This document shows, one piece after another, positions 37,352-58,181 of a DNA stretch of 64,000 bases. This DNA comes from an uncultured Oscillospiraceae bacterium (GTDB lineage Bacteria; Bacillota; Clostridia; Oscillospirales; Acutalibacteraceae), in NCBI GenBank assembly GCA_900541975.1, contig UQLR01000009.1, forward strand, positions 29,979 to 93,978, written 5' to 3'. The notes beneath the pieces were generated by a model, which searched no databases, had not been told where the DNA came from, and was given only the letters and a program-made list of their open reading frames with translations. The translations under genes were made by a program, and so were the position numbers. The stretch's first letter is position 1. Every line of letters starts with the position of its first letter.

Positions 37352-38770
37352 TTATTTTGTCAGCGGCGTGCGGATCAGTTTGCGTGCGAGAGCTTTGCCG
37401 TTAAACGGGATGAGGGGGTACAGATAACTTTTGCCCGATACCGTTTTGTTTGTCAGCAACAGGATAAAAGTCAGGACAATGCCCGCGCAAAAGCCCCATA
37501 TATTAAACAGCTGGGTCAGGATCAGCAAAAGCATGCGCAGAAATTTGAGTGAATAGCCCAGTTCATAGCTTGGCTGCGTATAGTTGGCAATGGCGACAAA
37601 GGCCATATAAAGGATGGCTTCTGTAGAAAACCAGCCTACGGTAACGGCAAAATCGCTCAGGGCGATTGCGCCGATGATGCTTAAAGAGGTACTTAAGCTG
37701 TTTGGTGTGTTGACAGAGGCAAGGCGCAGGCCATCTATGCCCAGTTCCAGAAGCATTAACTGCCAGAAAACAGGGATATTGACAGGCTCTGTGATCAATA
37801 TAAATGAAAAAGCTTTGGGGACAAGATCCGGGTTTTTCAGGGCAAGCAGCCACAGCGGTGTAATGACCAGTGTGGCCAGCGTAACAATATAACGTGCAAA
37901 GCGGATATAAGTGCCGGTAAGCGGTGGAAAGTAATAATCGTCGGCTTCCTCGATAATATCAAAAATTGAGGTTGGCAAAATCAGAACAGAGGGAGAATTG
38001 TCAACAAGAATAACGATGTTGCCCTCAAGCAGTGAAGAGGCGGCGGTATCCGGACGCTCGGTGTATTTAATTTTTGGAAAGGGATTATACCATTTGTGTT
38101 TATAAATTGCTTCGATGAGGCTTTGCTGGTTCATTGTGAGCGAATGGACGTTGATCGCTTCAATCTGCTTTGTAATTTTTGCAAGGAGCTGTTTGTCTAC
38201 TTTATCGTCCATATAGCAGACAGCCACGTCTGTTTTAGATTCTCTGCCTACGACAAAGGCGTTTATGCGCAGGTTTGTGTCGCGTATGCGCCGCCGGAGC
38301 AGGGCGGTGTTGCTGATCAGGGTTTCTACAAAGCCGTCTTTGGAGCCGCGCAGAGATTTGTCTTTTTCCGGTTCGCTGGTCTGGCGCTGTGGATAGGTGC
38401 GACTGTCAATCATGATGGCCTGTTCAAAGCCGTCTATAAATAGTGCGGAAACGCCGGAAAGGATATTCATACAGATTTGTTGTAAATTGTCTGCAACGGC
38501 TACCTCTACGTATGGAACGCAGTTTTTGACAAAAGTGTGTGCGTCGCGCATATCCTCTTCTTTGTCAAGTGAATAAAAAAATTCTAAAACCTTTTCCATG
38601 ACCTCGTCCTTGATCAGCCCATCTATAAAAAACAGGCAGCAGCGGCGGCTGTTAATCTGTACGGGCCTGCAGATTAAGTCAAAGCTTTCATCTGTATGCA
38701 GTGTTTTTCTGAATAAAGCTATATTGTCGTCAATATGTGTAGAAAGCGGCATGTTTTCACTCTTTTCCAT
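37352..38770 (-). CDS. GerA-family spore germination protein (SpoVAF-like)
   Basis: 472 aa. An N-terminal soluble domain of about 245 residues (FFIDGLIKDEVMEKVLEFF, RRRIRDTNLRINAFVVGR) precedes a membrane half with several helices and the conserved PFPKIKYTERPD and SVNTPNSLSTSLSIIGAIALSD-like segments. It belongs to the A subunits of germinant receptors or SpoVAF in the inner spore membrane. No B or C subunit genes adjoin, which fits SpoVAF better than a GerABC operon, but no spoVA genes are nearby either. Confidence 0.87.
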   Translation of the reverse strand: MEKSENMPLSTHIDDNIALFRKTLHTDESFDLICRPVQINSRRCCLFFIDGLIKDEVMEKVLEFFYSLDKEEDMRDAHTFVKNCVPYVEVAVADNLQQICMNILSGVSALFIDGFEQAIMIDSRTYPQRQTSEPEKDKSLRGSKDGFVETLISNTALLRRRIRDTNLRINAFVVGRESKTDVAVCYMDDKVDKQLLAKITKQIEAINVHSLTMNQQSLIEAIYKHKWYNPFPKIKYTERPDTAASSLLEGNIVILVDNSPSVLILPTSIFDIIEEADDYYFPPLTGTYIRFARYIVTLATLVITPLWLLALKNPDLVPKAFSFILITEPVNIPVFWQLMLLELGIDGLRLASVNTPNSLSTSLSIIGAIALSDFAVTVGWFSTEAILYMAFVAIANYTQPSYELGYSLKFLRMLLLILTQLFNIWGFCAGIVLTFILLLTNKTVSGKSYLYPLIPFNGKALARKLIRTPLTK

Positions 38771-39190: not shown

Positions 39191-39222
39191 ATTTTTCAGA
39201 CAAAAAGAGAGGAGTTTTTACT

Positions 39223-40881: not shown

Positions 40882-40918
40882 AAAAGTTGACCGATCCAGG
40901 TCAACTTTTTCTTTTTTT
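40882..40918 (+). terminator. strong terminator before the phage-like operon
   Basis: Perfect 11-bp stem AAAAGTTGACC/GGTCAACTTTT (40882-40892 with 40899-40909), 6-base loop, then TCTTTTTTT. It isolates the phage-like genes from upstream transcription. The rest of 40839-40990 has no gene and no clear promoter. Confidence 0.85.
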
Positions 40919-40990: not shown

Positions 40991-41497
40991 GTGGAAAAAA
41001 ATACGGTACAAAGGTTGACAAAACAGCAGCGTCTTTTTTGCCGGTGCTATGTCAATACCGGCAATGCCAGAGAAGCCGCCGTACAGGCCGGCTTTATCTC
41101 TGACGCACAGAAAAACGGAGAAGCACTTTTATGCAAAAGCGCAATTACAAAAGAGATTGCACGGTTGCTTAAGCAACGCAGAGAAATGCTTTCCTTGAAA
41201 GCGCTCAGCGGTTACGAACGACTGGCTTTTGGCAGCATTGCGGATGGTATTCGTCTGCTATATATAGAAGATCCGCTGCAGACTGACCTGGAAAGTATGG
41301 ACCTTTTTAATATTGCAGAAATAAAAAGGCCAAAAGACGGGGCTATGGAAATTAAATTTTTTGATCGGCTCAAGGCCCTTGAAAAGCTTATGCAGGCAAG
41401 AACAGAAGAAGATACGCCCTGTGTTCCGTTTTATGCGGCTTTACAACAGGGAGCGCAGGCGCTTGAAAGGTATGGCAATGAGAGGCTGGAGGAATAG
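40991..41497 (+). CDS. phage terminase small subunit-like protein
   Basis: 168 aa. N-terminal helix-turn-helix-like part (RLTKQQRLFCRCYVNTGNAREAAVQAGF, residues 8-35) matches terminase_2/TerS proteins that bind the packaging site. GTG start after AAAGGGGGATAAGGC. It is first in the operon, four bases before terL. Confidence 0.85.
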   Translation: MEKNTVQRLTKQQRLFCRCYVNTGNAREAAVQAGFISDAQKNGEALLCKSAITKEIARLLKQRREMLSLKALSGYERLAFGSIADGIRLLYIEDPLQTDLESMDLFNIAEIKRPKDGAMEIKFFDRLKALEKLMQARTEEDTPCVPFYAALQQGAQALERYGNERLEE

Positions 41498-41500
41498 CCA

Positions 41501-42772
41501 TTGGAGTTTAAAGCTTTTTCTGAAAAACAGCTTCGTGTTTTGACATGGTGGTGTGAAAAAAGCAGGTATGCAAAAAAGGATGCAATTATTTGTGACGGCG
41601 CGGTAAGAAGCGGAAAAACCGTTTGCATGGGTATTTCTTTTATCGCATGGGCTTTTTACCGGTTTGACGGGGCAAATTTTGCAATGTGTGGGAAAACAAT
41701 ACGTTCTTTAAAAAGAAATGTGGTCACGGCAATTTTGCCCGTTTTAAAGCAGTTGGGTTTTGCCTGCACGGAAAAGCTGTCTCAAAACCTTTTAGAGGTC
41801 AGCATAGGCGGCCGTACAAACTGCTTTTATCTGTTTGGCGGGAGGGATGAATCTTCGGCTTCACTGATACAGGGGATGACGCTTTCGGGCGTGCTGTTTG
41901 ACGAAGTGGCGCTGATGCCCAAATCGTTTGTAGAGCAGGCGCTGGCAAGATGTTCTGTAGAAGGGTCCAAGTTTTGGTTCAATTGCAATCCACAATATCC
42001 GCAGCACTGGTTCAGACAGGAGTGGATTTTAGATAAAGCAGGAAAAAATGCGCTTTATATTCATTTTAAGATGGAAGATAACCCCTCTCTTTCTCCTAAG
42101 ATGCTTGCGCGCTACAAAAATCTGTATACAGGAACCTTTTACCAACGGTTTATTGAGGGAAAATGGGTGTCGGCACAAGGGCTGGTATACCCGTTTATGA
42201 CCGCTGATAATATGTGTTGGGATACACCAAAAACAGACGCGGACGAGTTCGTGATTTCCTGCGACTATGGAACCGTAAACCCGGCTTCGTTCGGGTTGTG
42301 GGGTCATTACATAGATGGATGGTACAGAGTGGACGAGTATTATTATGACTCCAGAAAAGAGGGCGTGCAAAAGACAGATGAAGAACATTACCAGGGCTTA
42401 TGCAGGCTTGCGCAGGAAAAGACTGTCCGCTGTGTAATTGTCGATCCATCTGCGGCAAGCTTTATGGAGGTTATACGCAGACATGGACGCTTCAAGGTAT
42501 TGCCTGCAAGTAATTGTGTGCTGGACGGAATTCGCAGCGTTGCGAGCGCGCTGAAGCAGGGGGAAATTAAAATTTGCAAAAGCTGTACAGACGCTCTGCG
42601 GGAGTTTGGGCTTTACCGTTGGAAAGAGAACGGGCTGCACGATGCGCCTGTTAAAGAAAACGACCATGCCATGGACGATATACGCTATTTTGTTTCAACC
42701 TATTTAAACCGGAGCGACGATGGTATATTTGCCATTGCCGCGCGACGCACAGGAGGTAAAGCGTGGGATTAA
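41501..42772 (+). CDS. phage terminase large subunit (PBSX-like)
   Basis: 423 aa. ATPase Walker A GAVRSGKT (about 32-39), Walker B GVLFDEVALM (about 131-140), and nuclease acidic residues in VISCDYGTVNPAS and CVIVDPSAAS are intact. It packages DNA into the capsid. TTG start with GGAGG seven bases before it. The intact motor implies that capsids would be filled with DNA. It overlaps the portal gene by 10 bases. Confidence 0.93.
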   Translation: MEFKAFSEKQLRVLTWWCEKSRYAKKDAIICDGAVRSGKTVCMGISFIAWAFYRFDGANFAMCGKTIRSLKRNVVTAILPVLKQLGFACTEKLSQNLLEVSIGGRTNCFYLFGGRDESSASLIQGMTLSGVLFDEVALMPKSFVEQALARCSVEGSKFWFNCNPQYPQHWFRQEWILDKAGKNALYIHFKMEDNPSLSPKMLARYKNLYTGTFYQRFIEGKWVSAQGLVYPFMTADNMCWDTPKTDADEFVISCDYGTVNPASFGLWGHYIDGWYRVDEYYYDSRKEGVQKTDEEHYQGLCRLAQEKTVRCVIVDPSAASFMEVIRRHGRFKVLPASNCVLDGIRSVASALKQGEIKICKSCTDALREFGLYRWKENGLHDAPVKENDHAMDDIRYFVSTYLNRSDDGIFAIAARRTGGKAWD

Positions 42773-43971
42773 TAGATAGAAGAAAAAAGAAAAAACAAAC
42801 TTTTTCCGCTGTGCAGACGGCCTGCACGGAGCGCCGCAGCGTGCATCCGTTTACAGAGTTCAACGGATATATACCGTTAAAGACGGCGCAGCACGGGTTA
42901 TATGCCGCTATGCGGGAGGCAATCCCTATTGTTGACGCCGCAATTTTAAAAACGGTGCGGCTTGTGGGAGACTTTACAGTGGAATGCCAGAGCTTGCAGG
43001 CGCAACGGCAGCTGGCTGATTTTTTAAAAAATGTGCAGGTAGGCGGATGTTCCCGCGGGATTGTGCCGTTTTTATCTTCTTATCTGGAGCAGATGCTGAC
43101 CTATGGTACGGCGGCAGGGGAAATCGTATTATCGGCAGATGGGAGGTCGATTGGCGCGCTGTACAATGCAGATCTGGACAATATTGCGCTGCGGGCAGAG
43201 CAGAATCCACTGGAGGCAACGGTTTACTGCCGGGATGAAACAGGGCGCTGCATCCCGGCTCCATACCAGGCATTGCTTTGTGTGACGCCGTTAAACCCCA
43301 GGCCGGGAGCGCTTACAGGAACATCTGTACTTAGCGGACTGCCGTTTGTAAGCGGAATTCTTTTAAAAATTCTGCATACGATCGGCCTCAATTGGGAACG
43401 TGTGGGGAATGTGCGCTTTGCGGTAACATATAAGCCCTCCGGGGATGTATCGGAACGCGCTTTTACAAAGGAGCGCGCGCAGCAGATTGCCGACCAGTGG
43501 GGGAAAGCCATGCGCAATACAGGGCAGATCAGTGATTTTATTTCGGTCGGAGATGTAAATATCCGGGTTATTGGCGCAGACAACCAGGTGCTGGACAGCG
43601 AAGTACCGGTCAGGCAAATATTGGAACAAATTGTTGCAAAGCTTTCTATTCCTCCGTTTTTGCTTGGGCTTTCCTGGTCAAGCACAGAGCGGATGTCCAG
43701 CCAGCAGGCAGATATCCTGACCAGCGAGCTGGAATATTACAGAAATCTTTTAAACCCTGTTATTTGTAAAATATGCAGCTTGTGGCTGCGGTTGCACGGC
43801 TTTGAAGAAACGTTTGAGGTGTGCTGGAACAATATCAATTTGCAAGATGAAGTAGAGCTTGCAAACGCAAGGCTTTTACGTGCGCAGGCAGAAAAAACAG
43901 AGCAAGAAACACAAGAGGGGATGAAAAATGAAACAGGGACAAATTATCAAGAGCGCGGCGCAGGCGCTTAA
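42763..43971 (+). CDS. phage portal protein
   Basis: 402 aa. It has a DUF935/SPP1-type portal pattern: YAAMREAIPIVDAAI-x-KTVRLVG, TYGTAAGEIV, YNADLDNIALR, and a stem helix KLSIPPFLLGL. GTG start with AGGAGGT. It forms the dodecameric ring through which DNA enters and leaves the head. Confidence 0.85.
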   Translation: MGLIDRRKKKKQTFSAVQTACTERRSVHPFTEFNGYIPLKTAQHGLYAAMREAIPIVDAAILKTVRLVGDFTVECQSLQAQRQLADFLKNVQVGGCSRGIVPFLSSYLEQMLTYGTAAGEIVLSADGRSIGALYNADLDNIALRAEQNPLEATVYCRDETGRCIPAPYQALLCVTPLNPRPGALTGTSVLSGLPFVSGILLKILHTIGLNWERVGNVRFAVTYKPSGDVSERAFTKERAQQIADQWGKAMRNTGQISDFISVGDVNIRVIGADNQVLDSEVPVRQILEQIVAKLSIPPFLLGLSWSSTERMSSQQADILTSELEYYRNLLNPVICKICSLWLRLHGFEETFEVCWNNINLQDEVELANARLLRAQAEKTEQETQEGMKNETGTNYQERGAGA

Positions 43972-44902
43972 ACCGGAAGAGCTGGCGCAAATTCATACCT
44001 ATACCCGCAGGGAAATGGCACAGGAAGAAATTTACACCTTTTCGGTTGTTTTATGCGACAACGATATTGACCGCGATTTTGAATGCTTTGACGAGGAAGC
44101 GCTTTATACGCTTAAGAGACTTTTTGTGGGAAAAACAGGCATTTTTGACCACGACTTAAAAGCGGAAAACCAAACGGCACGTATTTATGACTGCTATGTG
44201 GAACGGCTGCAGGACAAAAAAACACAGACAGGCAAGCCTTATATGCGTCTTGTGGGCAAGGCGTACCTGCCGCGTTGCGCAAAAAATGAGGATCTGATTC
44301 TGGCGTTGGACAGCGGTATCCAAAAAGAGGTCAGCGTAGGTTGCGCGATAAGCAGGCGTACATGCTCTGTCTGTGGGGAAGATATGGGCGCCTGTGCGCA
44401 TCAAAAAGGCAAAAAGTACCGCGGACGGCTATGCTACGCTACATTAAGCGGCATAACGGACGCTTACGAGTGGAGTTTTGTCGCAGTGCCGGCACAAAGG
44501 CAGGCCGGTGTATTGAAAGCTTTAAAAAAAGAGGATATGGAGGGGAATACCTTGCAGAACATTATAAAAAGCCTTTGTGCGCAGCAGCCGGTTATGCTGT
44601 CTGCGCAGGACGCACAGGCATTATATGCACACATTCGCGGGCTGGAATGCGACGCAGGCTACGGAAGCGCTTACAGGCAGGAGCTAAAGGATGAGGTTGT
44701 CCGGCTGAGCATGCTGGTGCAGCCGGAAATTGCAAAGGAAACAATGCAAAGTTTAACCGAAAAAATGGATATAGAAGAGCTCAAGGCGTTTAAAAAAGGA
44801 TATATGGAAAAAAGCGCAAAGGTTTTGCCGTTGCGGCCGCAGCTTTTTGGGCCCAGAGAAAGCGGGAAGAAGACGGAAGAAAATACCGATTATAAAATTT
44901 AA
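43928..44902 (+). CDS. prohead protease with scaffold-like C-terminus
   Basis: 324 aa. The N-terminal part (about 1-200) resembles HK97-type proteases, with FDHDLKAENQTARIYDC, SGIQKEVSVGCAI and AYEWSFVAVPAQRQAG. A Cys/His insertion CSVCGEDMGACAH (about 146-158) could bind zinc. The C-terminal 120 residues are helical and charged, like a scaffold. It overlaps the end of the portal gene in another frame by 44 bases. It would process the capsid protein during head assembly. Confidence 0.75.
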   Translation: MKQGQIIKSAAQALKPEELAQIHTYTRREMAQEEIYTFSVVLCDNDIDRDFECFDEEALYTLKRLFVGKTGIFDHDLKAENQTARIYDCYVERLQDKKTQTGKPYMRLVGKAYLPRCAKNEDLILALDSGIQKEVSVGCAISRRTCSVCGEDMGACAHQKGKKYRGRLCYATLSGITDAYEWSFVAVPAQRQAGVLKALKKEDMEGNTLQNIIKSLCAQQPVMLSAQDAQALYAHIRGLECDAGYGSAYRQELKDEVVRLSMLVQPEIAKETMQSLTEKMDIEELKAFKKGYMEKSAKVLPLRPQLFGPRESGKKTEENTDYKI

Positions 44903-45016
44903 CGGATAAAACAGATCCGGCGGCAGGAAACGCGGCCCGTAAGGTGAAAAAGATTGCCTGAACCAGGCCGGGTTTGATTTTTCTATGTAAAAAAACAACG
45001 GAAAGGAAGCTAAAAA

Positions 45017-45352
45017 ATGAATGTGAGTTTTAACGGATATGATGAAAAAGTATTAACTTTTGTATGCACAGACAAGCTGGAAAAGGGTACGCCGGTAAAG
45101 CTTTCGGGCAACGGTACGGTTACGGCTTGTGCAGACGACGACGTATTTATTGGCATTGTGCTTTCTGTGCGGGACGGGTTTGCCGCTGTGCAAACAGGAG
45201 GCTATGTACAGCTGGTACCTTCCGGCAGTATTGCGATTGGGTATCAGAAAATTTCGGCTGCAACAGATGGCAAGGTCAAGGCGGACACAGACAATGGGCG
45301 TGAATATCTGGTGCTGCATACAGAGCAGGACAATGTAGGCGTCATTCTTTGA
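45017..45352 (+). CDS. putative head decoration or minor capsid protein
   Basis: 111 aa, beta-rich, with no helices of note (segments FVCTDKLEKGTPVKLSG and FIGIVLSVRDGFAAVQTGG). Its size and place between protease and major capsid match capsid-stabilising decoration proteins. Function inferred from position. AGGAAG precedes the ATG. Confidence 0.6.
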   Translation: MNVSFNGYDEKVLTFVCTDKLEKGTPVKLSGNGTVTACADDDVFIGIVLSVRDGFAAVQTGGYVQLVPSGSIAIGYQKISAATDGKVKADTDNGREYLVLHTEQDNVGVIL

Positions 45353-45380
45353 CAATAGGGATATAAGGAGGCAATAGATT

Positions 45381-46388
45381 ATGGCATTATATGAAACAAT
45401 AGCGCTGGAAAAGGGTATGTACGGGGCAAGAGGAAAAAGCATGACGCAGGTATTGGAGGAGATGGATCCTTCAGAAAACTACCGCGACACACCTCTTGAA
45501 GGCTTGGACGCTTTTCAGCGACAGCTTAAACGGTTTGATATTAAGGTAAGCGGTGCGCATTCGGACAGTGTGGAAAAGTTTTTTCAGAGCAGTTCATCCG
45601 CGGCCCTTTTTCCGGAATATATAGGCCGCGCCGTTAAACAAGGGATGGAGGCGGCGGACATCCTTCCCAATATCATTGCCGCGGTAACTAAAATTGAGGG
45701 AATGGATTACCGCAGCATTGTGTCTACACCCACACAGGACGACAAGGAATTAAAGCCGGTGGCAGAGGGCGCAATGATTCCGCAGACTGTAGTAAAAACA
45801 CAGGAAAACCTGGTGAAGCTTCATAAAAGAGGCAGAATGCTGGTATCTTCCTATGAAGCGCTGCGTTTTCAGAGGCTGGATCTGTTTACCGTAACGCTGC
45901 GGCAGATCGGTGCGTATATTGCAAGGGCGCAGTTGAAAGACGCGGTAAATGTACTGCTAAACGGCGACGGAAACAGCAACCCGGCCGGTGCAGTTGCGGC
46001 TGACGGCGAAACGCTTGCATACAGCGACCTGCTAAAGCTTTGGGGCGCGCTTTCCCCCTATGAGCTTAATACTATTTTGGCTCCAACGGCGGTCGTCCAG
46101 AAGATTTTGGCCATGACGCAAATGCAGGACGCACAGGCGGGGCTGACATTTCAGGGGACAGGTAAAATGGTAACGCCTATGGGCGCCACACTGTTGCACG
46201 TACCTTCTATTGAAGGAAATACGATTATTGGGCTTGATAAAAACTGCGCGCTGGAAATGGTGCAGGCAGGGGAGGTCATCACCGATTATGACAAGCTGAT
46301 TGACCGGCAGCTGGAACGCGCTACAATCAGTTGTATTGCCGGGTTTGCCAAAATTTTTACTGACTCTGCCAAAAAGCTTACATTTTAA
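45381..46388 (+). CDS. phage major capsid protein (HK97 fold)
   Basis: 335 aa. Helix-rich N-terminal part (about 1-70), then the HK97-like core with KGRMLVSSYEALRFQ-like segments, LKDAVNVLLNGDGNSNPAG and IIGLDKNCALEMVQAGEV. AGGAGG precedes the ATG. The size fits a small to medium icosahedral head. Confidence 0.85.
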   Translation: MALYETIALEKGMYGARGKSMTQVLEEMDPSENYRDTPLEGLDAFQRQLKRFDIKVSGAHSDSVEKFFQSSSSAALFPEYIGRAVKQGMEAADILPNIIAAVTKIEGMDYRSIVSTPTQDDKELKPVAEGAMIPQTVVKTQENLVKLHKRGRMLVSSYEALRFQRLDLFTVTLRQIGAYIARAQLKDAVNVLLNGDGNSNPAGAVAADGETLAYSDLLKLWGALSPYELNTILAPTAVVQKILAMTQMQDAQAGLTFQGTGKMVTPMGATLLHVPSIEGNTIIGLDKNCALEMVQAGEVITDYDKLIDRQLERATISCIAGFAKIFTDSAKKLTF

Positions 46389-46405
46389 CACATGGGGGCG
46401 GCGGT

Positions 46406-46768
46406 ATGAACTTTAAAGAGGTATATGAACGTTTTTTATTGATTGCGGATATGGATCAGGAAGAGGGTTCTAAGTGGGCCGTACTGTGCAACGAAGCAAT
46501 AGAGGATATACAGAATATGTGCAAAAGCGGTACGGATATACAGTTAAACGGCAGGCGGCTTTCAGCCGCTGCCGCTGCCCTGGCGTTTTATAAAATGGCG
46601 CTTATGCAAAACGCTGCAGAGGACGTTTCTTCTTTTAAAGCGGGCGACATAAGCATTCAAATGGGAAGTCGCTGTACAAAAGCGCAGCAGGCCTGGCTGT
46701 GTGCAAAAGCGCATATCAGCGACCTGATACGCGACGAAGATTTCCTTTTTGAACAGGTGACAATATGA
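46406..46768 (+). CDS. head-tail connector-like protein
   Basis: 120 aa, mainly helical (YERFLLIADMD, NEAIEDIQNMC, ALAFYKMALMQ), as in gp6/gp15-type adaptors that sit under the portal. Call based on position after the capsid gene and size. It overlaps the next gene by 4 bases. Confidence 0.55.
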   Translation: MNFKEVYERFLLIADMDQEEGSKWAVLCNEAIEDIQNMCKSGTDIQLNGRRLSAAAAALAFYKMALMQNAAEDVSSFKAGDISIQMGSRCTKAQQAWLCAKAHISDLIRDEDFLFEQVTI

Positions 46769-47157
46769 ACACGTATACGATGAAAACCATACAAAGGTTG
46801 ATTAAAACTTTTGGAAATACAATTGAGGTACTGCTGGACGGACAGCTGCAGGAAACGGGAAGAGCGTTTATACAGCCTTTGCGCTATAAGAACAAGATTT
46901 ATCTAGATGGCTATTATTTGCCGCCGGGCTATTGCGACGGGGGACATTTTCTTTATATAGGTCCACCTGATATTCATTTTGTACGCCCGTATGAAAATCT
47001 TGTGATCCGATGTGAAGAGCTAAGTGAAAGCTATACGGTTAAGCGTGCGGAAACATATAAATTTGCAGGCAGACCCGTTTATGTATGGGCTGTGCTTACG
47101 CCCTGCACTGCCGATTTGGAAGAAAGCGCGCAGAGTCGACAGGAGGGAGCGGTATGA
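46765..47157 (+). CDS. head-closure/minor head-tail protein
   Basis: 130 aa beta-rich protein (TIEVLLDGQLQETGRAFIQPL, PPGYCDGGHFLYIGPPDIHF, YTVKRAETYKFAGRPVYVW). This matches the stopper or head-completion position in the order connector-stopper-terminator. It overlaps the neighbours by four bases on each side. Confidence 0.55.
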   Translation: MNTYTMKTIQRLIKTFGNTIEVLLDGQLQETGRAFIQPLRYKNKIYLDGYYLPPGYCDGGHFLYIGPPDIHFVRPYENLVIRCEELSESYTVKRAETYKFAGRPVYVWAVLTPCTADLEESAQSRQEGAV

Positions 47158-47924
47158 AAACGGCGCAGGAAACCGTGCAATCTGTTTTAGAATGGCTAAA
47201 AACCGGGGATGAACTGCAGGAGGTTTCTTTTGTTCCGTCTTACCAAAGCAAAAGCTTTGCAGTTCCGGTAAAAAAGCCAGTGGCTGCGGTAGGGAAGCAC
47301 AGTATTTTTGCCTGTGCAGAGGCCAAAAGCAGCGAAATACAGGCGGTACAGGAAAAAGGGCTTAGGATCGCTGTGGATGTATTTGTCCCTGTTCTGGATG
47401 GCGGCGAGGCCTGCGCGCAACTGCTGGATAAAATAAGCGCCAGGCTTCTGGAGCATGTACAGGAAGGCCGGTATGAGATCAAAACGGGCGCAGTACAATA
47501 TCAGAGCAGCACAGGTGCATTTACAGCACAGCTTCTGCTTACCATCATGCAGATACAGGCGGCCCAGCAGGAAGCAGACAAGAGAAATGTGGTTATGCAT
47601 GTAAACGGCGCCCGGTTTTATGCGCAAAATGTAACGGTAACAGAAACAGAAGACCTGTACCCGATAGAGTGTTATGGGGAAAGGGTGCCGTATGCTTCAA
47701 TCAACCGCGGACGGCGCTATGAAGTTATGATTCAAAAACCTGTAACAAAGGACAATCTCTCGGAAGCGTTTACACAGATAAATGCAACGGTATCTGTACG
47801 CAATGCAGGCGGCGGCATTTATCTGTATGGGTGTAATGTAAAGCGTATAGAAAGCCATGTGGAAAACGGGCTTTATTATATGGATACGATTGTACTGACG
47901 GCACAAAGAAAAGAAACCGTATAG
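47154..47924 (+). CDS. tail-terminator-like protein with an extra C-terminal domain
   Basis: 256 aa, nearly twice the usual length of a tail-terminator protein. Residues 1-145 look like an ordinary terminator: alpha/beta, with LRIAVDVFVPVLDGGEACAQ. Residues 150-256 form a separate beta-rich module (VVMHVNGARFYAQNVTVTE, YGERVPYASINRGRRYEV, YLYGCNVKRIESH) that could be a tube-like domain. ATG 47154 follows GGAGGGAGC. Sheath, tube and tape-measure genes normally follow here but are absent. Confidence 0.55.
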   Translation: MKTAQETVQSVLEWLKTGDELQEVSFVPSYQSKSFAVPVKKPVAAVGKHSIFACAEAKSSEIQAVQEKGLRIAVDVFVPVLDGGEACAQLLDKISARLLEHVQEGRYEIKTGAVQYQSSTGAFTAQLLLTIMQIQAAQQEADKRNVVMHVNGARFYAQNVTVTETEDLYPIECYGERVPYASINRGRRYEVMIQKPVTKDNLSEAFTQINATVSVRNAGGGIYLYGCNVKRIESHVENGLYYMDTIVLTAQRKETV

Positions 47925-47937
47925 AAAGGGGCGTAAA

Positions 47938-48096
47938 ATGGAAACGCAGACAAAATATACAGCTGTACAACAGGAACTGTCCCAACGGTATATGGAGCAA
48001 GCGGAAAACGCAAGGTTGTTGTCGGATGTTTTCGAACGCGACAGCCGCCGTTACTCAAATACGCTCAAAGAAGAAGAGGAGGTGCAGGCTCTGTGA
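47938..48096 (+). CDS. 52-aa helical protein in the tape-measure position
   Basis: Sequence METQTKYTAVQQELSQRYME then a continuous highly charged helix to the C-terminus. It has a good AAAGGGG ribosome site. Its stop overlaps the following GTG start by 4 bases, which supports real translation. In contractile-tail phages this is the place of tape-measure and chaperone genes; a 52-residue helix could be a minimal tape-measure or a plug. No homologue is known to me. Confidence 0.6.
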   Translation: METQTKYTAVQQELSQRYMEQAENARLLSDVFERDSRRYSNTLKEEEEVQAL

Positions 48097-48617
48097 ACCA
48101 CCCACCTATACGGTACAGAGGCGTAGAGCTGCACCATAATCCTAAAAGCATACAAATTGAAGAGAACAAAAGCTATAGCGAACATTTTTTTGTCAACGCC
48201 CTCGGGGCGGTGCAGGAATCCGGAAGAAAGGCGCGGGTTGTGTCAGGAGAAGGGGAATTCTTTGGAAAGGATTGCCTTACGCAATATAATGCGGTATTGG
48301 AGTTGTTTACAAGCAGAGAAGGCGGGCTTTTGTCTGTAAGCGGCTATACGCCCTTTTATGCGCGTTTTGTTTTATTTACGCTGACACAGCCGCCTCTGGA
48401 AAATTTTTTAAGTTACCGTTTTGTTTTTATAGAGGACATGTCGCTGATGCCGCAGGGAATAAAAGTCAGACAGCAGACCCATACGGTAACGGAAAACCAA
48501 ACGCTTTGGGATATTGCTTACCTGTATGGTATACCGGTAGAGTCGCTTTTGATAAATAATCCCGGGATAAGCAGGCCAGATGCACTGACAAGCGGACAAG
48601 AGGTGAAACTTTTATGA
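48093..48617 (+). CDS. LysM-domain baseplate protein (XkdP/gp53-like)
   Basis: 174 aa. The N-terminal part (about 1-120) is beta-rich. The C-terminal LysM (HTVTENQTLWDIAYLYGIPV and onward, about 130-174) matches tail proteins placed between tape-measure and hub in myophages and PBSX. GTG start with AGGAGGTG. LysM might touch peptidoglycan or the tail. Confidence 0.8.
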   Translation: MNHPPIRYRGVELHHNPKSIQIEENKSYSEHFFVNALGAVQESGRKARVVSGEGEFFGKDCLTQYNAVLELFTSREGGLLSVSGYTPFYARFVLFTLTQPPLENFLSYRFVFIEDMSLMPQGIKVRQQTHTVTENQTLWDIAYLYGIPVESLLINNPGISRPDALTSGQEVKLL

Positions 48618-49555
48618 CTTTTACGGCAATTACCGCCGACAGAAAAATGTTTACGCTTTGCAGTCCGCTGTCCTGTTGTATGGAATATGAGCAGGGGATA
48701 CCGGCAGACGCTTTAACAGCCGCGTTTCCTTACAGATCCGACATACCGCAGCTTGCGTATATTGTGGTGCAGAAGGATAAAAAGCCTGTTTTTACAGGCG
48801 TAATTGACGAACAGCGCTTTTTATCTGTAGAAGGAGAAGGCATGGTTATGCTTTCTGCCAGAAGCCTGGCGGCGCTGCTGCTGGACAATGAAGCAATGCC
48901 GCAAAACTATAACAACCCGGATGCACAGACAATTTTTTTGCGGCATATACAACCTCTTGGCATTACACAGTACAGCTGCGAAAAAAAACCAAGAGCAGCA
49001 AGCTTTACGGTGGATAAGGGGTCGACGCATTGGCAGGTTCTTGAAAGTTTTTGCAGGGTTTGTCTGGACAGTTACCCTGCAGTGGATGAAACCGGACGTG
49101 TATGTATGTGCGGACGTCCGGGCGGGGAAAACGCGCTTTTGTTTGCAAATACAGGCGAAGGAATCCGTTTTACCAGGTTTGAAAAAACAGTGAAACGGTG
49201 CAAGCGACTGTCGGAAGTGCTTGTAAAAACATCTGTAGACGGCGCCTATTCGACGCCGGTGCGAAACGCCGTCGCCCTTTCAGAAGGCGTTATAAGGCGG
49301 CGGTATTTAAATGCATCGGAACTGTCTGGGAACAGTGTATTGGACGCAGATAAAATGATCCGGGAAGGGGAGTATGCATCGGTTGAAATTACACTTAGCT
49401 GCCCCAGTCCCCTTTTAGGGTGTATGGGACGTACCGCACGGATTCTGTATGGAGAAGAAACATACGACGGATTATATATTAGCGGGCTGCAGTATACCTG
49501 TGCACGGGAAGAGGAAAAAACGGTTCTGTTATTTTCAAAATACAGGAAGGAATAA
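48614..49555 (+). CDS. baseplate hub protein (gpD/XkdQ-like)
   Basis: 313 aa. Domain order and beta content match late-control gpD/gp27-like hubs: YIVVQKDKKPVFTGVIDEQ, LSARSLAALLLDNEA, STHWQVLESFCRVCL, and a long beta C-terminus. It would form the central trimer on which the spike sits. Overlaps the LysM gene by four bases. Confidence 0.8.
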   Translation: MTFTAITADRKMFTLCSPLSCCMEYEQGIPADALTAAFPYRSDIPQLAYIVVQKDKKPVFTGVIDEQRFLSVEGEGMVMLSARSLAALLLDNEAMPQNYNNPDAQTIFLRHIQPLGITQYSCEKKPRAASFTVDKGSTHWQVLESFCRVCLDSYPAVDETGRVCMCGRPGGENALLFANTGEGIRFTRFEKTVKRCKRLSEVLVKTSVDGAYSTPVRNAVALSEGVIRRRYLNASELSGNSVLDADKMIREGEYASVEITLSCPSPLLGCMGRTARILYGEETYDGLYISGLQYTCAREEEKTVLLFSKYRKE

Positions 49556-49559
49556 AATT

Positions 49560-49907
49560 ATGTGGCTTTTAAAAAATATGGCGCAAAATGGAAGGACAGA
49601 GAAAAAAGCAGATAAAGGAAAAATATCGTCTGTATCTCAATCTTTTGTTACGGTACAAACAGCGCTTGAACATCGGAAAATTCCAGTGGTCTGTCCATAT
49701 GGGCTTGCATATGTACCGGCCCCGGGGGAAGAGTGTGTAACGCTTCCTCTGCAAAACGGGCAAATCTGCATTGGTGCTCCCGTAAAAGACAAGGAGTTGC
49801 AGCCGGGGGAAATTATGCTGTATTCTGCCGGCGGCGCGACGTTGGTTTTAAAAAATGACGGAACGATTTTGGCGAATGGAAAAGTCCTGGAAAGCGGGGA
49901 TGGATAA
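49560..49907 (+). CDS. baseplate spike protein (gpV/gp45-like)
   Basis: 115 aa. An OB-like start (GKISSVSQSFVTVQTALE) and end with repeated beta strands (TLVLKNDGTILANGKVLES), resembling the shaft of central spikes. ATG 49560 follows AGGAAGGA; earlier in-frame starts overlap the hub gene. Very short for a spike, in line with the small size of the whole system. Confidence 0.65.
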   Translation: MWLLKNMAQNGRTEKKADKGKISSVSQSFVTVQTALEHRKIPVVCPYGLAYVPAPGEECVTLPLQNGQICIGAPVKDKELQPGEIMLYSAGGATLVLKNDGTILANGKVLESGDG

Positions 49908-50255
49908 ATGGATACAGCATTAAATGACGCTGGGGATTTTGCTCTGGACGGCAGAGGAATGCCTTATCTTTTGAGCGGCCTTGCGGAACTAATGCAGCGG
50001 GTGAAGCTGTGTTTACAGATCAAAAAGGGAAGTTTTCTTTATGACCGCAACCTGGGGTCTGAACTTCATACCTTGGAGCACGGCACGGAGCTTTTGCAGC
50101 AGAGAGCGCAGATGCTTGTATATGAAGCGGTTGCCGCGGTGCCGCAGGTCAGGCTTTACAACATTCAGGCTGATTTTCCTCAGGACGGCCCTTTGAAATT
50201 ATCACTCGATATTGATTTTGCCGGCGAAACGGGAACGCTGGAGGTGACGCTTTAA
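49908..50255 (+). CDS. baseplate wedge protein gp25/gpW-like
   Basis: 115 aa. The gp25 fold is suggested by DFALDGRGMPYLLSGLAELMQRVKLCL, LYDRNLGSELHTL and a final beta strand (LKLSLDIDFAGETGTLEVTL). It is the standard partner placed before gpJ. The next gene overlaps its stop by one base. Confidence 0.8.
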   Translation: MDTALNDAGDFALDGRGMPYLLSGLAELMQRVKLCLQIKKGSFLYDRNLGSELHTLEHGTELLQQRAQMLVYEAVAAVPQVRLYNIQADFPQDGPLKLSLDIDFAGETGTLEVTL

Positions 50256-51325
50256 TGGACAGCTATCAGGAAATTTTGGACAGAATGAAAGAAAAATATA
50301 AGGAACTCAGCGGATATGAGGCCGACGGGGCGTCGGACATTGGTATACGAATGCAAGTGCTTGCAGGCGAAGTTTTTTCGCTGAATTGCTATGCACAGTG
50401 GATGATCAGACAAATGTTCCCGCAAACGGCGCAGGGGCAACAGCTGGATTATCATGCGCTTGAGCAGGGGCTTACCAGAAAACCCGCAATTGCGGCAAAG
50501 GGGACTTTGTCTTTTTATCTGGAAGAGGCGGCCGGCGAGGACATACAGATTCCTGCCGGTACGGTGTGCGCAACGGCGGGCGAAGACGCCATGCGTTTTG
50601 TAACAACACAGGACGCGACGCTTTCTCAGGGAAGCATTGTGGCAGCCGTTCCGGCTGCGGCGCAGGAAGAAGGAGCAAAGGGAAATGTGGCGCCCCAGAG
50701 TATAAGCGTCATGGTCACACCGCCGGCGGGGATTGCTTATGTAAAAAATACCGTTCCTTTTACAGGCGGAGAAGACGAAGAGACAGACGAACATCTGCGG
50801 CGGCGCATATTGGAAAATCTGCGAAATCCGCCGCGCGGGACAAACAGTGCTTTTTATAAACAGGCAGCTGAAAGCGTAGACGGCGTATATTCTGCCGGCG
50901 TAGCGCCGAAGGCGCGCGGGACGGGAACCGTTAATGTATATATTGCAAAACAGGGGACGGCGGCGCCGCAATCGCTTGTGGAGCAGGTACAGGAAAAATT
51001 GGAGGCGGAAAGGGAAATTAACGTGGACGTCCTTGTGGCGTCTGCACAGGCGGTTCCGTATGATGTACATGCTGAAATAGAGATTGCAGACGGATATACA
51101 TGGAGTACAATAGAAAGCCAGTGCGAGCAGGCAATTCGTGCGTATTTTGATACAGTCGGCGTTGGACAGGCGGTACGGACTTCTGGTATAGGCGAGGCAA
51201 TTTTTCACGTGGCGGGAGTAAAAAGCTATATTTTTGACGATTATTATACAAACGATATACAGGCGCTTGCATCCCAGCTTTATGTAGTCAGAAATATTGT
51301 ATTGACAGAAAGAGGGAGTACATAA
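50255..51325 (+). CDS. baseplate J-like protein
   Basis: 356 aa. Full-length gpJ/gp47/XkdT layout: GSDIGIRMQVLAGEVFSLN-like start, the QGQQLDYHALEQGLTRKPA motif (about 62-80), TGGEDEETDEHLRRRILE and the C-terminal NDIQALASQLYVVRNIVL. It links wedge to fibre in contractile or short tails. The gene is intact. Confidence 0.9.
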   Translation: MDSYQEILDRMKEKYKELSGYEADGASDIGIRMQVLAGEVFSLNCYAQWMIRQMFPQTAQGQQLDYHALEQGLTRKPAIAAKGTLSFYLEEAAGEDIQIPAGTVCATAGEDAMRFVTTQDATLSQGSIVAAVPAAAQEEGAKGNVAPQSISVMVTPPAGIAYVKNTVPFTGGEDEETDEHLRRRILENLRNPPRGTNSAFYKQAAESVDGVYSAGVAPKARGTGTVNVYIAKQGTAAPQSLVEQVQEKLEAEREINVDVLVASAQAVPYDVHAEIEIADGYTWSTIESQCEQAIRAYFDTVGVGQAVRTSGIGEAIFHVAGVKSYIFDDYYTNDIQALASQLYVVRNIVLTERGST

Positions 51326-51891
51326 TGGGCGCAGTGGCATCTATGATCCAAAAACTTGCGCCGCTTGGTGTTTATGCACTGCAACAGAACAGCGCGGTTT
51401 ATAAAGAACTGTGCGCGTATGCGGCGGCTCTGGATATCCTTGAAGCAACGCTTTTGCAGGCACAGCAGGAATGCTTTATTTGTACGGCGCAATCATACGG
51501 GTTGTCGCATAGAGAGATTAATATAGGGCCGGTCAGGGAAGAACTTACCCTGGAAAAACGCAGAGAAATGTTGTTGTCCAGAGCGGCTCTAAAGCAGGAC
51601 GATTTTAATAGAAGCGGCGTCGAACAGATGTTAAGTGCGCTTGGACTGGAATTTACGCTTTTTGAGCTTCCACATCAGCAAACGCTCCATATTGATTGTA
51701 AAGGCAGCTATACGCAGGCACAGCGCAAATGGATTTCTTCGCAGGCAATTGCGCAGCTTCCTGCGCATCTGGATGTGCTTTTGGACTTTAGAAACCTGCA
51801 ATGGAGCACAATTGATGCAAAAAACCTGACGTTTGCTTCTATGGACGCCAAAGCAATGACATGGAAACAGATTGAGAGCTACGGAGTATGA
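51325..51891 (+). CDS. phage tail protein gpI/YmfQ-like
   Basis: 188 aa. YmfQ/DUF2313-type layout: N-terminal helices (YKELCAYAAALDILEATLLQ), RREMLLSRAALKQDDFNRSG, a GLEFTLFELP strand, and LPAHLDVLLDFRNLQWSTID. It attaches the fibre to gpJ. It overlaps gpJ by one base. The position and size match. Confidence 0.8.
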   Translation: MGAVASMIQKLAPLGVYALQQNSAVYKELCAYAAALDILEATLLQAQQECFICTAQSYGLSHREINIGPVREELTLEKRREMLLSRAALKQDDFNRSGVEQMLSALGLEFTLFELPHQQTLHIDCKGSYTQAQRKWISSQAIAQLPAHLDVLLDFRNLQWSTIDAKNLTFASMDAKAMTWKQIESYGV

Positions 51892-51909
51892 TGAAAGGAA
51901 GGACAGAAA

Positions 51910-52374
51910 ATGGCATCTTCAGAAAAAACGGCAAATTTGGGGTTGAACCTGTGGGAACCGGAAGATAAACCGATCAGGGCCGACTTTGTGGCTGATAACC
52001 AGCTGATTGATCAGGTAGTCGGTACACATACAAAAAATTCCAATATCCACATAACAGCGTCGGAAAAAACAAAGCTCAACGAGCCTTATCAGGTAAAAAT
52101 GTTTGCCGGAACAGGAAGCGCCAGTTTTACCTATACGTTCGATTTTTCCCCTAAATTTGTAGTGGTCTATAAAAAGAACGCCCCCATGTTTGTGTATAGT
52201 GGCGGCGCAAGTGTTATAAACGGGGCGCTTGCAGCCTCTGTTTATGGCGCGACGCAGGGCGCGCAGCTAAATGCGAACAAGCTGACGCTGACGCAACAAT
52301 CTGCGTCGGTCAACGGCATACGCTGCAATTTAAATGAAGAAGACGGACAGTATGTAATTGTGGCGTACCGGTGA
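51910..52374 (+). CDS. fibre or receptor-binding-like tail protein
   Basis: 154 aa. The N-terminus (NLGLNLWEPEDKPIRADFVADNQ) is typical of proteins that dock on the baseplate. A short beta region follows (SFTYTFDFSPKFVVVYKKNA) with a jelly-like C-terminus rich in Asn and Gln (about 100-154). Last gene of the operon; it could bind a cell-surface receptor. No trimer repeats are visible. Confidence 0.65.
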   Translation: MASSEKTANLGLNLWEPEDKPIRADFVADNQLIDQVVGTHTKNSNIHITASEKTKLNEPYQVKMFAGTGSASFTYTFDFSPKFVVVYKKNAPMFVYSGGASVINGALAASVYGATQGAQLNANKLTLTQQSASVNGIRCNLNEEDGQYVIVAYR

Positions 52375-53391: not shown

Positions 53392-54525
53392 TTACAGCAC
53401 GTCTTTAAACATGGTCGGCTGGTAACTGTTGATAGCGGCGTCATTTTTCTCGCATTCATACGCTTTGGCCTGCGCATCCATATCTTTTTGATATTCTTCA
53501 AATTTCATGGAATACAGCACCGAGCTGCGCTGGGATTCTTCAAAAACATTTTCCGCTTCTTTATTGATGTCGCCCTTATAGACAAGGTATAAAACAGCGG
53601 TGGAATCTTCCCCCACCTGAATTACAGTTGCCTGATTGGCGTCAAGCCCTTCCAGCGCTTCTTTCAGTTCGTCACCCAGAGAAGAATCTTCTAAAATTTC
53701 CGTATTTGTAACGGAAGGATCTTCTTCCAAACCCGCGGCTGTGGTGTAAGCCTGCGCAATTTCGTCATAGGTTTTGCTGCCGTTGTTGATCTGCTGTGCA
53801 TAAGCGTTGAAATCGTCTGTGGCTTGTTTGACTTCCTCCTCACTGAAAGCTACAGAGGTTGAATCGGTGGAGGAAGCGTCGTCGCTCTCACTGTCGGTTG
53901 TTGTATACAAATTCATAGGCAAATATGCGTAATTGGTATAGTTTTCTATGAAATAGGCCTTAATTTCGTCGTCAGAAACAGCCTTTTCACCGCCTATGCC
54001 GTAGATTGCGTCAAAAAGCGCGTTGTATTTGGCGGCAAACAGATATTCTGCACGATAAAAAGAGTCCTTGGAAATCCCCAGCTTTTCATACGTTTGTCCG
54101 TAATAGCTCCATGCCTGGTCCGCATTGCTTTCTGCAGCAGTAAGCTCCGTTTCCGAAAGAGTCAGACCCTTCTGAGCAAAAAGCTTTTCAGTGTTTAACA
54201 GGTTTTTGCAAGCGTTTTCAGCCTCCTGCAAAATATAATCCTGTGCGTTTACCTTGTCGCCGTTTGGATCTTCAATTTCCTGCGTAAGAACGTCCACCGC
54301 TTCTGTTGCGGCTTCTGTTCCCGATTGCGTTGCGCTTTCTGTTTGGGCGGAAGAAACCTGGTTGGAAGCATATCCGTACGCACCCGACATATAGTAGATA
54401 TATGTGCCGATAGAAAGCGTGTTTATGTCGTCTTTATATGACCATGATTGGTCAGCGCAACTGGCGCTGACTGTAAGCATACCCATTGCAAGGGCCAAAG
54501 CAAGCAGCTTTTTTGTTGTTTTCAT
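53392..54525 (-). CDS. PrsA/SurA-like foldase, secreted
   Basis: 377 aa. A signal sequence with a Cys at residue 23 (TVSASCADQ) could be a lipoprotein site, although the residue at -3 is Ser rather than the usual Leu or Val. The body is helical like SurA/PrsA N-terminal chaperone domains. Its C-terminal half (DFNAYAQQINNGSKTYDEIA to LDANQATVIQVG) resembles parvulin-type folding domains, without a clear catalytic set. It lies after mfd on the same strand, as in many Firmicutes. The ATG 54525 has a distant AAAGGA. Confidence 0.75.
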   Translation of the reverse strand: MKTTKKLLALALAMGMLTVSASCADQSWSYKDDINTLSIGTYIYYMSGAYGYASNQVSSAQTESATQSGTEAATEAVDVLTQEIEDPNGDKVNAQDYILQEAENACKNLLNTEKLFAQKGLTLSETELTAAESNADQAWSYYGQTYEKLGISKDSFYRAEYLFAAKYNALFDAIYGIGGEKAVSDDEIKAYFIENYTNYAYLPMNLYTTTDSESDDASSTDSTSVAFSEEEVKQATDDFNAYAQQINNGSKTYDEIAQAYTTAAGLEEDPSVTNTEILEDSSLGDELKEALEGLDANQATVIQVGEDSTAVLYLVYKGDINKEAENVFEESQRSSVLYSMKFEEYQKDMDAQAKAYECEKNDAAINSYQPTMFKDVL

Positions 54526-54647
54526 AATGGTATGATCGTTCCTTTCGTTTAATACAAATCGTAAGTAATTATACACGTTTGGGACAAATTTGTCTATAAT
54601 AATTCCATCATTTTAAAAGGAGTTCACAATTTAATTAGAAACAAAAG

Positions 54648-57600
54648 TCATCCGCGCAGGGCAAAAATCGTATGCAACGCCGCTTGTACAGAAAGATTTT
54701 TCCCCATTTTTACCGCAATATAAGGCTTACTTCCGGCGTTTAAGAGCGCCTTGCCTTTCAGGCGCGCGATAATATCTGCTACCGCAGGCGACTTTATCTG
54801 TTTGACATAGAGCAGAAACGTATAGCCCTGTTGTTTAATTTCATAAATGCCCATAGCTGCGGCAGCGCTGCGTACCAACGCTATATCAATCAGCCCAAGC
54901 ACAGCCTGCGGGGGCTCGCCGAAACGGTCAATCAGCTCGTCTGTAACATCGCGCGCATCCTCTTTGTTGCGGATGTCTGAAATATGACGGTAAATATCAA
55001 GCCGTTGGCTTAAGCTTTGAATGTAATCTTCCGGGATATGCGCCTGAATCTGCACGTCGATCAGGCATTCCAGTTCCGCGCTGCTGTTAGACTGTCCCTT
55101 TTCTTCGTTGACAGCCTCGCTAAGCAGCTTTAAATACATATCATAGCCAACGTCTTCCATATGCCCGTGCTGCTGCGCGCCGAGAATATTTCCTGCGCCG
55201 CGCAGTTCCAGGTCGCGCATGGCAATTTTAAAGCCGGAGCCAAACTGTGTGAATTCCCGTATGGCGGTTAGGCGCTTTTGCGATATTTCGCTGAGCACTT
55301 TGTTTTGAACAAACGTAAAATAGGCATAGGCCCGCCTGGAAGAGCGGCCTACGCGCCCGCGCAGCTGGTGCAATTGGGAAAGCCCCATACAGTCTGCGTT
55401 TTCTATAATCAGCGTGTTGGCGTTTGGGAGGTCAATTCCCGTTTCAATAATAGTGGTACATACAAGCACGTTCACTTCCTGCTCAAGCATCTTGCGCCAA
55501 ACGCTGGAAAGCTCCTGTTCGGTCATTTTTCCATGTCCAACGGCGATTTTGGCTTCCGGCATCATAGTTCGCAGTTTTTGGGCCTTTTGCTCTATGCTTT
55601 CGACTTTGTTGTGCAGATAGAACACCTGGCCGCCGCGGCGGAGCTCACGGCGGATCGCTTCACAAATTACAGCATCGTCATGTTCCAGCACATAGGTTTG
55701 TACGGGGTATCTGTCTTGCGGCGCTTCTTCCAAAATCGACATATCGCGTATGCCGCTCATTGCCATATTCAGCGTTCTTGGAATGGGCGTGGCGGAAAGC
55801 GTCAGGACGTCTACATTTTTACAAAGCGCTTTAAACCGTTCCTTTTGCGCCACGCCAAAGCGCTGTTCTTCATCAATAATACATAATCCCAAGTCGTGAA
55901 ACTGCACGTCCTTTTGCACCAGCCGATGGGTTCCAACGACCATATCTATGTCGCCGCGCCGCAAACGCCGGATTATGTCGGCCTGCTGCTTGGAGGAACG
56001 AAAACGGGACAAAAGCTCGATCCTTACAGGGTAACCTTCAAAACGACGCAGAACCGTCTGATAATGCTGCCAGGCAAGAATCGTTGTTGGGCAAAGCAGC
56101 GCGCACTGCTTGGAGTCTGTCACACATTTAAATGCGGCGCGCAGCGCAACTTCTGTTTTTCCAAAGCCCACGTCGCCGCATAAAAGCCGGTCCATGGGGG
56201 CTGTATGCTCCATATCGTTTTTTATTTCGTCTATACAGCGAATCTGGTCTTCCGTTTCTTCATATTCAAAACGTGCTTCAAAATCTCTCTGCCAGTCAGA
56301 ATCCGGCGGGAAGGCGTGACCCTGCGCCTGCATGCGCTGGGCATACAGGGCGATCAGCTCCTTAGCCATATCTTTAACGGCGCTCCTGACGCGGGCTTTT
56401 GCTTTTTGCCAATCCGTACTGCCCAGCCGGCTTAAACGCACTGCGGAGTTTTCGCGTGGACCAATGTATTTTGAAATTAAATCTAACTGGGTAACGGGGA
56501 CGTAAAGTGCATCTTTCTTTGCATATTCGACCTTGATATAGTCCTTTACAATCCCTTGTGTTTCTATTTTGTGAATACCGCTGAAAATACCAATGCCATG
56601 CGTGGAATGGACAACATAATCCCCAACGTTCAGCTCTGCCAGACTGTAAATTTGCCGGGCGTTTTTATTTTTTGCCTTCTTTTTTCTGGAAGCATGGACA
56701 ACCTGCCCGTGGGTAATAAGTATGAAATGTAAAGCCGGGTATTCAAACCCGGACGACAGGCAGCCTTCCATTACATAAATTTTTCCCTGTACAGGCTGCG
56801 AAAGCTGCTCTGTTAACTGTACGGGGAATCCTTTTTCTGAAAGAGCCTGCACAACAGACTGCGCGCTGCGCGCGGTACCGGCCAGAACGACCACGCTGCT
56901 GTTTTTGTGAAAAGCAGCCTGCAGGTCTTCGCAAAGCACCTGGATTGAGCCGCTCCAGGTTGAAAGTTGCTTGGCGGTGAAAGAAACAAGCTCATGCAGC
57001 GGCAGGTCGTAACTGCCGTGTGTAAAATTGTCCAAATAGATCAGCCTTGCCCGCCTGAAAATGTCAAGCAGGTCTGTCTGGTCAAGGAAATAGGTGTCAT
57101 ATCCTTTGCACAGTGCACCGGTGGAAAAGCAGTCTTTCAGTTCTTCCTCAAACAGACGCGTATACGCACGCATGCGGTCGTTTGTTTTGACAGGCTCAGA
57201 GATAAAAAGAAAGTCTTCCCCGCCCATATAATCAAAAAGTGTAGCCGGCTTTTCATAAACCAGACTGATAAATTTATCTTTAGAAGCAATTGTAAGCCCG
57301 TTTTTCAAAGCGTCTGCTTCATTTTGCAAAACCTGGCGCGCAAGCGGCGCCGCTTTGCCGCGCAGCAAGGCGGCGTGGCGCTCAATTTGTAGGGCGAGCG
57401 CGTTTTTATCCTGGATCAGAACTTCGGTGGAGGGGGTAAGCGTCAGTTCTTCAATATATTCGGTTCTGCGTTGGGTTTCCGGATCAAAATAATTGAGCGT
57501 GTCAACCTGGTCGCCCCAGAATTCTGCACGCACAGGAGCCGGGGCATCCGGCATGTAAAAGTCCAGAATACCGCCTCTTACAGCAAACTGGCCGGCGCCT

Positions 57601-58100: not shown

Positions 58101-58181
58101 GAATTTCCCAACCGTATCCTTTGTAAAATAAAATATGTAAACAGCAAAGGAAGCGCCCGGCGGCATTATGCCGGGCAAAGG

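Follow-up and report, generated by a model that had tools for sequence, protein, structure and literature searches.

Between positions 40991 and 52374 of the 64-kb stretch of DNA from an uncultured Oscillospiraceae bacterium analysed here (the window) lies a compact 11.4-kb cluster of 16 intact phage structural genes and a 52-aa open reading frame (ORF), all on the + strand and overlapping or nearly so (Table 1). Searches against Pfam and PHROGs assigned its products, some of them by weak matches, to two groups, one for DNA packaging and the head and one for a baseplate of Mu/T4 type. An earlier note on this DNA had counted seventeen intact genes; its frames and strand were confirmed, and the count now reads as 16 structural genes plus the ORF at 47938-48096. 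The complete head module that it described, with intact ATPase and nuclease residues in the terminase large subunit (TerL), was borne out by the family matches and by seven TerL residues (K39, D134, E135, D255, D315, D388 and D392), presumably the Walker and nuclease residues, which are invariant in a 20-row alignment that includes the window sequence. The portal and capsid profiles, compared by sequence with solved structures, gave no match. As the note had also reported, the genes for integrase, repressor and lysis and the attachment sites that mark an ordinary prophage were not found at the locus: the ORF list and family searches gave no integrase, replication or lysis genes among the cluster genes, no long attachment-site-like direct repeat was found between 40300 and 53300, a scan of the window returned no tRNA, and the flanks read as ordinary chromosome genes on both sides.

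Table 1. Features of the cluster, its upstream region and its host neighbours (window coordinates)
Feature	Position	Strand	Evidence
Terminase small subunit (TerS)	40991..41497	+	PF03592 E 6e-17
Terminase large subunit (TerL), ATPase- and nuclease-type residues conserved	41501..42772	+	phrog_2 E 2e-46; 20-row alignment
Portal	42763..43971	+	phrog_30703 E 4e-140
Probable head maturation protease	43928..44902	+	phrog_16951 E 2e-94 (unknown function); phrog_18299 E 1e-4 (weak)
Head decoration / virion structural protein	45017..45352	+	phrog_4588 E 4e-19
Major capsid protein	45381..46388	+	PF25209 E 7e-17; phrog_3922 E 2e-99
Putative head-tail adaptor	46406..46768	+	Position only; conserved in position, no family match
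Probable head-closure (stopper) protein	46765..47157	+	Stopper fold in model; no family match
Tail terminator fused to tail tube	47154..47924	+	AlphaFold2 model
52-aa ORF in tape-measure position, coiled-coil-like by eye	47938..48096	+	Iterated HMM matches 99 loci
LysM / DNA-circulation-like tail protein	48093..48617	+	PF01476 E 1.5e-8; PF07157 E 6e-4, just under cut-off
Baseplate hub (Mu gp44-like)	48614..49555	+	phrog_177 E 7e-13
Spike (Mu gp45-like, weak)	49560..49907	+	phrog_25991 E 2e-13 (unknown function); PF06890 E 0.03; start 49560 inferred
gp25-like baseplate wedge / sheath initiator	49908..50255	+	PF10934 E 7.5e-5, under cut-off; phrog_120 E 2e-6
Baseplate J (gpJ)	50255..51325	+	PF04865 E 1.4e-57
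Baseplate I / Mu gp48-like	51325..51891	+	PF10076 E 2e-6, under cut-off; phrog_521 E 1e-10
Short tail fibre (weak)	51910..52374	+	phrog_33092 E 2e-4; phrog_12796 tail fiber E 0.016
Candidate transcription attenuator: hairpin and T-run immediately before terS	40882..40909	+	Hairpin scan
gerA, conserved host neighbour marking the site	37352..38770	-	PF03323 E 3e-146
Host genes flanking the fibre end: prsA-like gene and mfd	53392..58178	-	tblastn matches in 19 and 16 loci; mfd domains

The tail encoded between head and baseplate is predicted to be extremely short. A sheath hidden Markov model (HMM) that detects sheaths in seven relatives found none in the 64 kb, and the tube and LysM genes are separated by only 169 nt (median 133 nt in 98 sheathless loci), so that the note's description of a head and baseplate lacking both sheath and long tape measure stands. 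Its statement that there is no separate tube was overturned by an AlphaFold2 model of the 47154-47924 product, in which residues 1-140 align to terminators and residues 139-256 to tubes; on this model a tail tube is present, C-terminal to the terminator in one fused protein. The gene before it appears to encode a stopper, a call that comes from the VIA-align Z, as the profile gave chance-level matches to solved structures by sequence and a Foldseek search of the model gave none at E <= 0.001. Because stopper fold, terminator and tube intervene, the baseplate would not be seated on the portal, or almost directly on it, as the note had proposed. A helix rises 1.5 angstrom per residue and a tail tube ring measures ~4 nm; the 52-residue helix would span at most ~8 nm, and the tube would therefore make about one or two rings (the length of the small protein was counted in 21 loci only).

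Seven related loci retain a sheath (L026, L030, L060, L146, L156, L158 and L162, in our numbering of loci), encoded by ORFs of ~343-380 aa. PF04984/PF17482 match the three sheath ORFs tested, falling under the cut-off in L030 and L060. These relatives match the window in head genes and gene order, and in baseplate genes as far as their contigs reach, and differ in keeping the sheath, which stands between terminator and tube in six of the seven loci, i.e. in all six where both were found. Even here the tube-to-LysM distance is 194-1254 nt (six loci), leaving no room for the usual long tape measure. The earlier note had held that relatives with a full tail module at this position would point to a recent deletion; such sheaths do exist, but in a TerL, portal and capsid tree (120 rows; FastTree, midpoint root, branch support not inspected; L002, L004 and L007 left out as duplicates of L058, L066 and L093) their loci occupy deep branches, indicating an old, fixed sheath loss and not a recent deletion. 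Sheathless L101 falls beside sheath-bearing L060. These patterns suggest that a contractile ancestor probably lost its sheath more than once, the reduced form being kept.

One genome, G118 (L158, L186, L187), carries the sheath-bearing version with a short tape-measure region, flanked by rpsF and ssb on one side and on the other by host genes, among them recG, ~10 kb along. No integrase was seen there by inspection, and since the cluster sits among host genes, domestication may predate sheath loss. An ultra-short contractile particle of this type may exist.

A sheath supplied from elsewhere in the genome, which would have spoken against the note's interpretation, was not found where we looked. 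PF04984 matched nothing in the complete cluster-bearing genome, Ruminococcus sp. FMBCY1 (G001), which holds one gpJ, nor in 30 of 40 cluster-bearing genomes hand-picked from the 144 portal-bearing genomes described below, although a sheath as Pfam-weak as that of L030 could escape such a scan. Sheaths did occur at other places in the remaining 10 genomes, as might be expected of a satellite or phage relying on a helper prophage in the same cell for its sheath, tape measure, lysis and integration genes; yet with sheaths missing from the other 30 and from G001, no room for a tape measure in the tube-LysM gap, and vertical inheritance at a site conserved in part of the relatives, we regard such dependence as barely credible. 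The FMBCY1 chromosome, where the cluster lies at ~1.848-1.859 Mb (NZ_CP074197.1), has in addition a separate siphoprophage-like region (C1:2026000-2060000; L201, L202). Its TerL is related to that of the cluster, in the same family (E 4e-185), and one of its ORFs, of 1083 aa, resembles a tape measure, the functions in this region having been read by eye.

Gene order and strand were identical in 127 of the 128 loci that carry at least six of the 16 scored elements, the loci in which order was scored (three duplicate pairs, L002/L058, L004/L066 and L007/L093, retained; L115-L145, ~4 kb each, set aside), which excludes chance; all 16 elements were present in 76 loci. The family is widespread: capsid searches returned at least 7999 candidates at E <= 0.001, and a contig scan confirmed at least 558 loci, of which 80 were kept for analysis. 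Among the loci listed, titles are mostly of Ruminococcus, Clostridia, Clostridiales and Oscillospiraceae metagenome-assembled genomes (MAGs), many from gut or rumen, with one complete genome. Within the order, 33 of 197 genomes had the capsid, always as one copy and never with a stop. Portal matches were found in 144/250 genomes from the family that includes Ruminococcus sp. FMBCY1, 104/247 of a second family and 6/291 of the class, one of them marginal (each count includes its centre genome); we take the two portal-rich families to be Acutalibacteraceae and Ruminococcaceae of GTDB. The capsid of the second family has named homologues in an Oscillospiraceae bacterium (68% identity) and Ruminococcus (55-61%). 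The portal is nearly always single-copy, as five genomes gave a second match that was weak (E >= 6.9e-5) and G278 and G206 gave fragments; a second copy is possible in G206, whose two fragments overlap on the model. A more reduced form occurs in L147-L151, where head and hub genes are found with no spike, gp25, J or I adjoining, and where the capsid or portal is 40-46% identical to that of the window.

The chromosomal setting of the cluster is shared by part of its relatives. The gerA gene adjoins terS divergently in 22 of the 75 loci with at least 1.5 kb of upstream sequence, matches to mfd and to a gene that we presume to be prsA-like lie downstream in all matching loci except L099, and gerA and mfd both flank the cluster in five loci as well as in the window. 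Protein distances of gerA and of TerL, portal and capsid combined were similar in mean (0.37 and 0.33) and strongly correlated (Mantel r 0.928, 0/2000 permutations as high, n=23), the co-divergence that vertical inheritance predicts. In the window, a T-box leader and a trpB-like gene (38938-40602) stand between gerA and the cluster; trpB was matched in none of the relatives' loci fetched for the neighbour comparison, and therefore looks like a local insertion. Upstream, between 35222 and 38770, GerA is accompanied by genes whose products are presumably dCMP-deaminase-like and SpmB-like, with similar ORFs upstream in 10-11 relatives. The proximity of a germination gene and an SpmB-like ORF would suit a particle owned by the host whose task is protein delivery or an action on the producer cell, for example in sporulation or lysis, and not the carriage of DNA, but conservation and constraint of both terminase subunits and the portal, and the lack of any family match in the cluster that suggests an effector, make such a role very unlikely.

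Relatives of the cluster are under purifying selection. Median ratios of nonsynonymous to synonymous substitution (dN/dS; NG86) ranged from 0.05 for the capsid to 0.23 for the tube across the 16 scored elements, with TerL at 0.07, portal at 0.09, gpJ at 0.12 and gp25 at 0.19, and single pairs reaching 0.51. These values, from 14-20 pairs of relatives per element, are rough, since dS is near or above 1 in many pairs; the comparison covers 20 of 293 candidate pairs, ordered by capsid identity and with capsid dS of 0.1-1.5, all between loci other than the window, and takes in neither the fibre nor the 52-aa ORF. Gene pairs were excluded if dS was undefined or <= 0.05, and pairs share members (L066-L054 and L054-L004 are the same comparison). 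The relaxed selection and frequent stops that would have marked a decaying element were thus not seen, stops occurring in 20 of 248 portal matches and 0 of 33 capsid matches. An old defective prophage remnant with no present function could account for the stops in some copies, the loss of wedge genes in some lineages and the replication, integration and lysis genes not found in the cluster, but hardly for the low dN/dS of every scored element, the gene order kept in 127/128 loci and the co-divergence with gerA; we consider it highly improbable, in agreement with the note's argument against simple wreckage and its suggestion that the host may have kept the cluster.

Just upstream of terS, a hairpin with a T-run is of a kind present in 42 of the 90 upstream regions compared, that of the window among them, as judged by a uniform criterion under which dinucleotide shuffles gave a mean of 0.1 and a maximum of 1. 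Its arms differ on both sides between loci, and it recurs in 16 of 23 gerA-marked regions (again with the window), where it cannot end the upstream gene, because gerA is divergent; the trpB-like gene of the window has a terminator-like hairpin of its own. We infer from these sequences a candidate attenuation or antitermination control. A promoter scan gave fewer matches than shuffled sequences.

Several known systems resemble the cluster in part. Features of contractile phages and tailocins (gp25, J, I, hub and spike) are present, those of gp25, I and spike by matches that are weak or under the cut-off, and the sheath is absent. Among the alphaproteobacterial gene transfer agents (GTAs), RcGTA has a siphophage-like tail, whereas a Mu/T4-type baseplate and a stub tube are encoded here. 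PBSX has a contractile tail with sheath and long tape measure. PBSX-type elements of Bacillus are similar to the cluster in being Gram-positive, domesticated and equipped with contractile-phage-type baseplate proteins, but both sheath and long tape measure, which they keep, are gone here. A PBSX-like killing particle, packaging host DNA without delivering it and using baseplate, LysM and spike proteins against related strains, would explain why those proteins are conserved; the missing sheath, and selection that appears to guard a DNA-filled head (capsid and TerL being the most constrained of the scored genes), render it unlikely. Features of GTAs are found in the compact phage-derived head-tail cluster devoid of replication and integration genes and in its vertical inheritance in the host lineage. 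As described elsewhere, GTAs package mostly random host DNA in heads too small for their own genes (4-14 kb), and RcGTA homologues are vertically inherited (PMC11841831).

The nearest published system, and one that looks similar, is FpGTA of Faecalibacterium prausnitzii, reported in Nat Commun in January 2026 (PMC12946183). It is reported to comprise a 10.5-kb operon I and a 5.5-kb operon II, the latter coding for baseplate, fibre, holin and endolysin, and to make particles of ~40 nm that have no identifiable tails and contain ~9 kb of DNA. The FpGTA I proteins are encoded at 2536737-2546346 of CP030777. FpGTA differs in carrying a head scaffolding gene and in setting baseplate, fibre and lysis genes apart in operon II, whereas the cluster described here has its baseplate in the same operon and no lysis gene that we could find; nor was a second baseplate locus found, G001 holding a single gpJ. 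In the parts of the article seen, random packaging is also reported for R. callidus (4.6 kb), with no operon named there, and for Gemmiger, CAG-115 and others; the first operon search covered four MAGs, with R. callidus not among them (PMC12946183). The note's remark that it knew of no described system like this needs qualification, a similar-looking one having been published. No such operon in Ruminococcus was mentioned in the titles or abstract openings that we searched, a coverage that takes in little of the subscription literature.

Two records filed as Bacteriophage sp. from human faeces in Mexico, MT835508 (L192) and MT835952 (L193), contain this cluster in bacterial chromosome sequence: MT835508, which also carries rpoA, secY, ribosomal L6 and nrdD-type genes, is chromosomal by the first three of these, and MT835952 has gerA beside terS. 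Both may stem from a study of DNase-treated virus-like particles (PMC8361208, seen in part; the connection is ours), an origin that would fit packaging, and also contamination.

Taken together, these observations favour a vertically inherited, host-owned cluster of phage origin that is probably a family of domesticated GTAs with a stub tail. Domestication is near certain; GTA function, though unproven, is the best explanation and a likely one; and the new element is the sheathless baseplate architecture. In such an agent, TerS and TerL would package host DNA fragments at random into a presumably small head, and the fragments would be delivered through a stub tail of about one or two tube rings, the baseplate serving as a static adsorption and cell-wall-piercing plate by way of LysM, spike and fibre. 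The leader hairpin may hold back transcription, and release would depend on lysis factors whose genes lie outside the cluster. The probable ancestor of the element is a contractile-tailed relative, its sheath later lost.

A number of points weigh against this interpretation. The cluster is known from its genes, with particles, packaged DNA and transfer all predicted; neither a lysis gene nor a regulator was identified at the cluster, no genome-wide search for holins or regulators having been made; and packaging could be sequence-specific, because TerS keeps a normal Terminase_2 match. The site is marked by gerA in only 22 of 75 loci, the remainder having other flanks, and stops interrupt the portal match in 12 of 144 genomes of the first family and 8 of 104 of the second (20/248). 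A gpJ match is absent genome-wide from G031, G084, G125, G162, G198 and G185 (divergent copies, completeness not given), one of them from the first family, and in G185 (L153) head genes and terminator were found with no later elements beside them, so that in these genomes the baseplate may be dispensable or the copies failing. As to FpGTA, homology is not shown: a 16S probe that we take to be that of Faecalibacterium (CGCCTACCTCTGCACTAC), and that listed papers contain alongside the name of the genus, matched three of 247 genomes, which are assigned by the probe alone, and all three lack a portal of this family (FpGTA sequences themselves not being compared). TerL matches occur in G424, on one contig with a sheath and gpJ, unlike this cluster, and weakly in G353, which may not be Faecalibacterium, because its genus holds only 7 genomes. 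A follow-up homologue search by the authors of the FpGTA article, spanning all their scaffolds and 16 genomes, gave FpGTA operons for Faecalibacterium and not for Gemmiger or Subdoligranulum (PMC12946183).

The family is a candidate for the 4.6-kb random packaging of R. callidus, a link to an operon that is not made in the parts of PMC12946183 at hand. It is possible, and we propose it tentatively, that a widespread new GTA family of Ruminococcus-type gut and rumen bacteria, with its sheath lost and a myovirus baseplate set on a one- or two-ring tube, lies behind that packaging. The operon, its site and a complete cluster-bearing genome, that of Ruminococcus sp. FMBCY1, are now in hand, and chromosomal clusters of this kind are to be found filed as phages in virus collections. 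If the GTA interpretation is true, the relatives would record a stepwise taming of a contractile phage by shrinkage of the tape measure, loss of the sheath and, in some lineages, fusion of terminator and tube, with the baseplate retained, and particle-borne gene transfer owned by the host would be built into about half of the sampled species (248/497) of two gut and rumen families.

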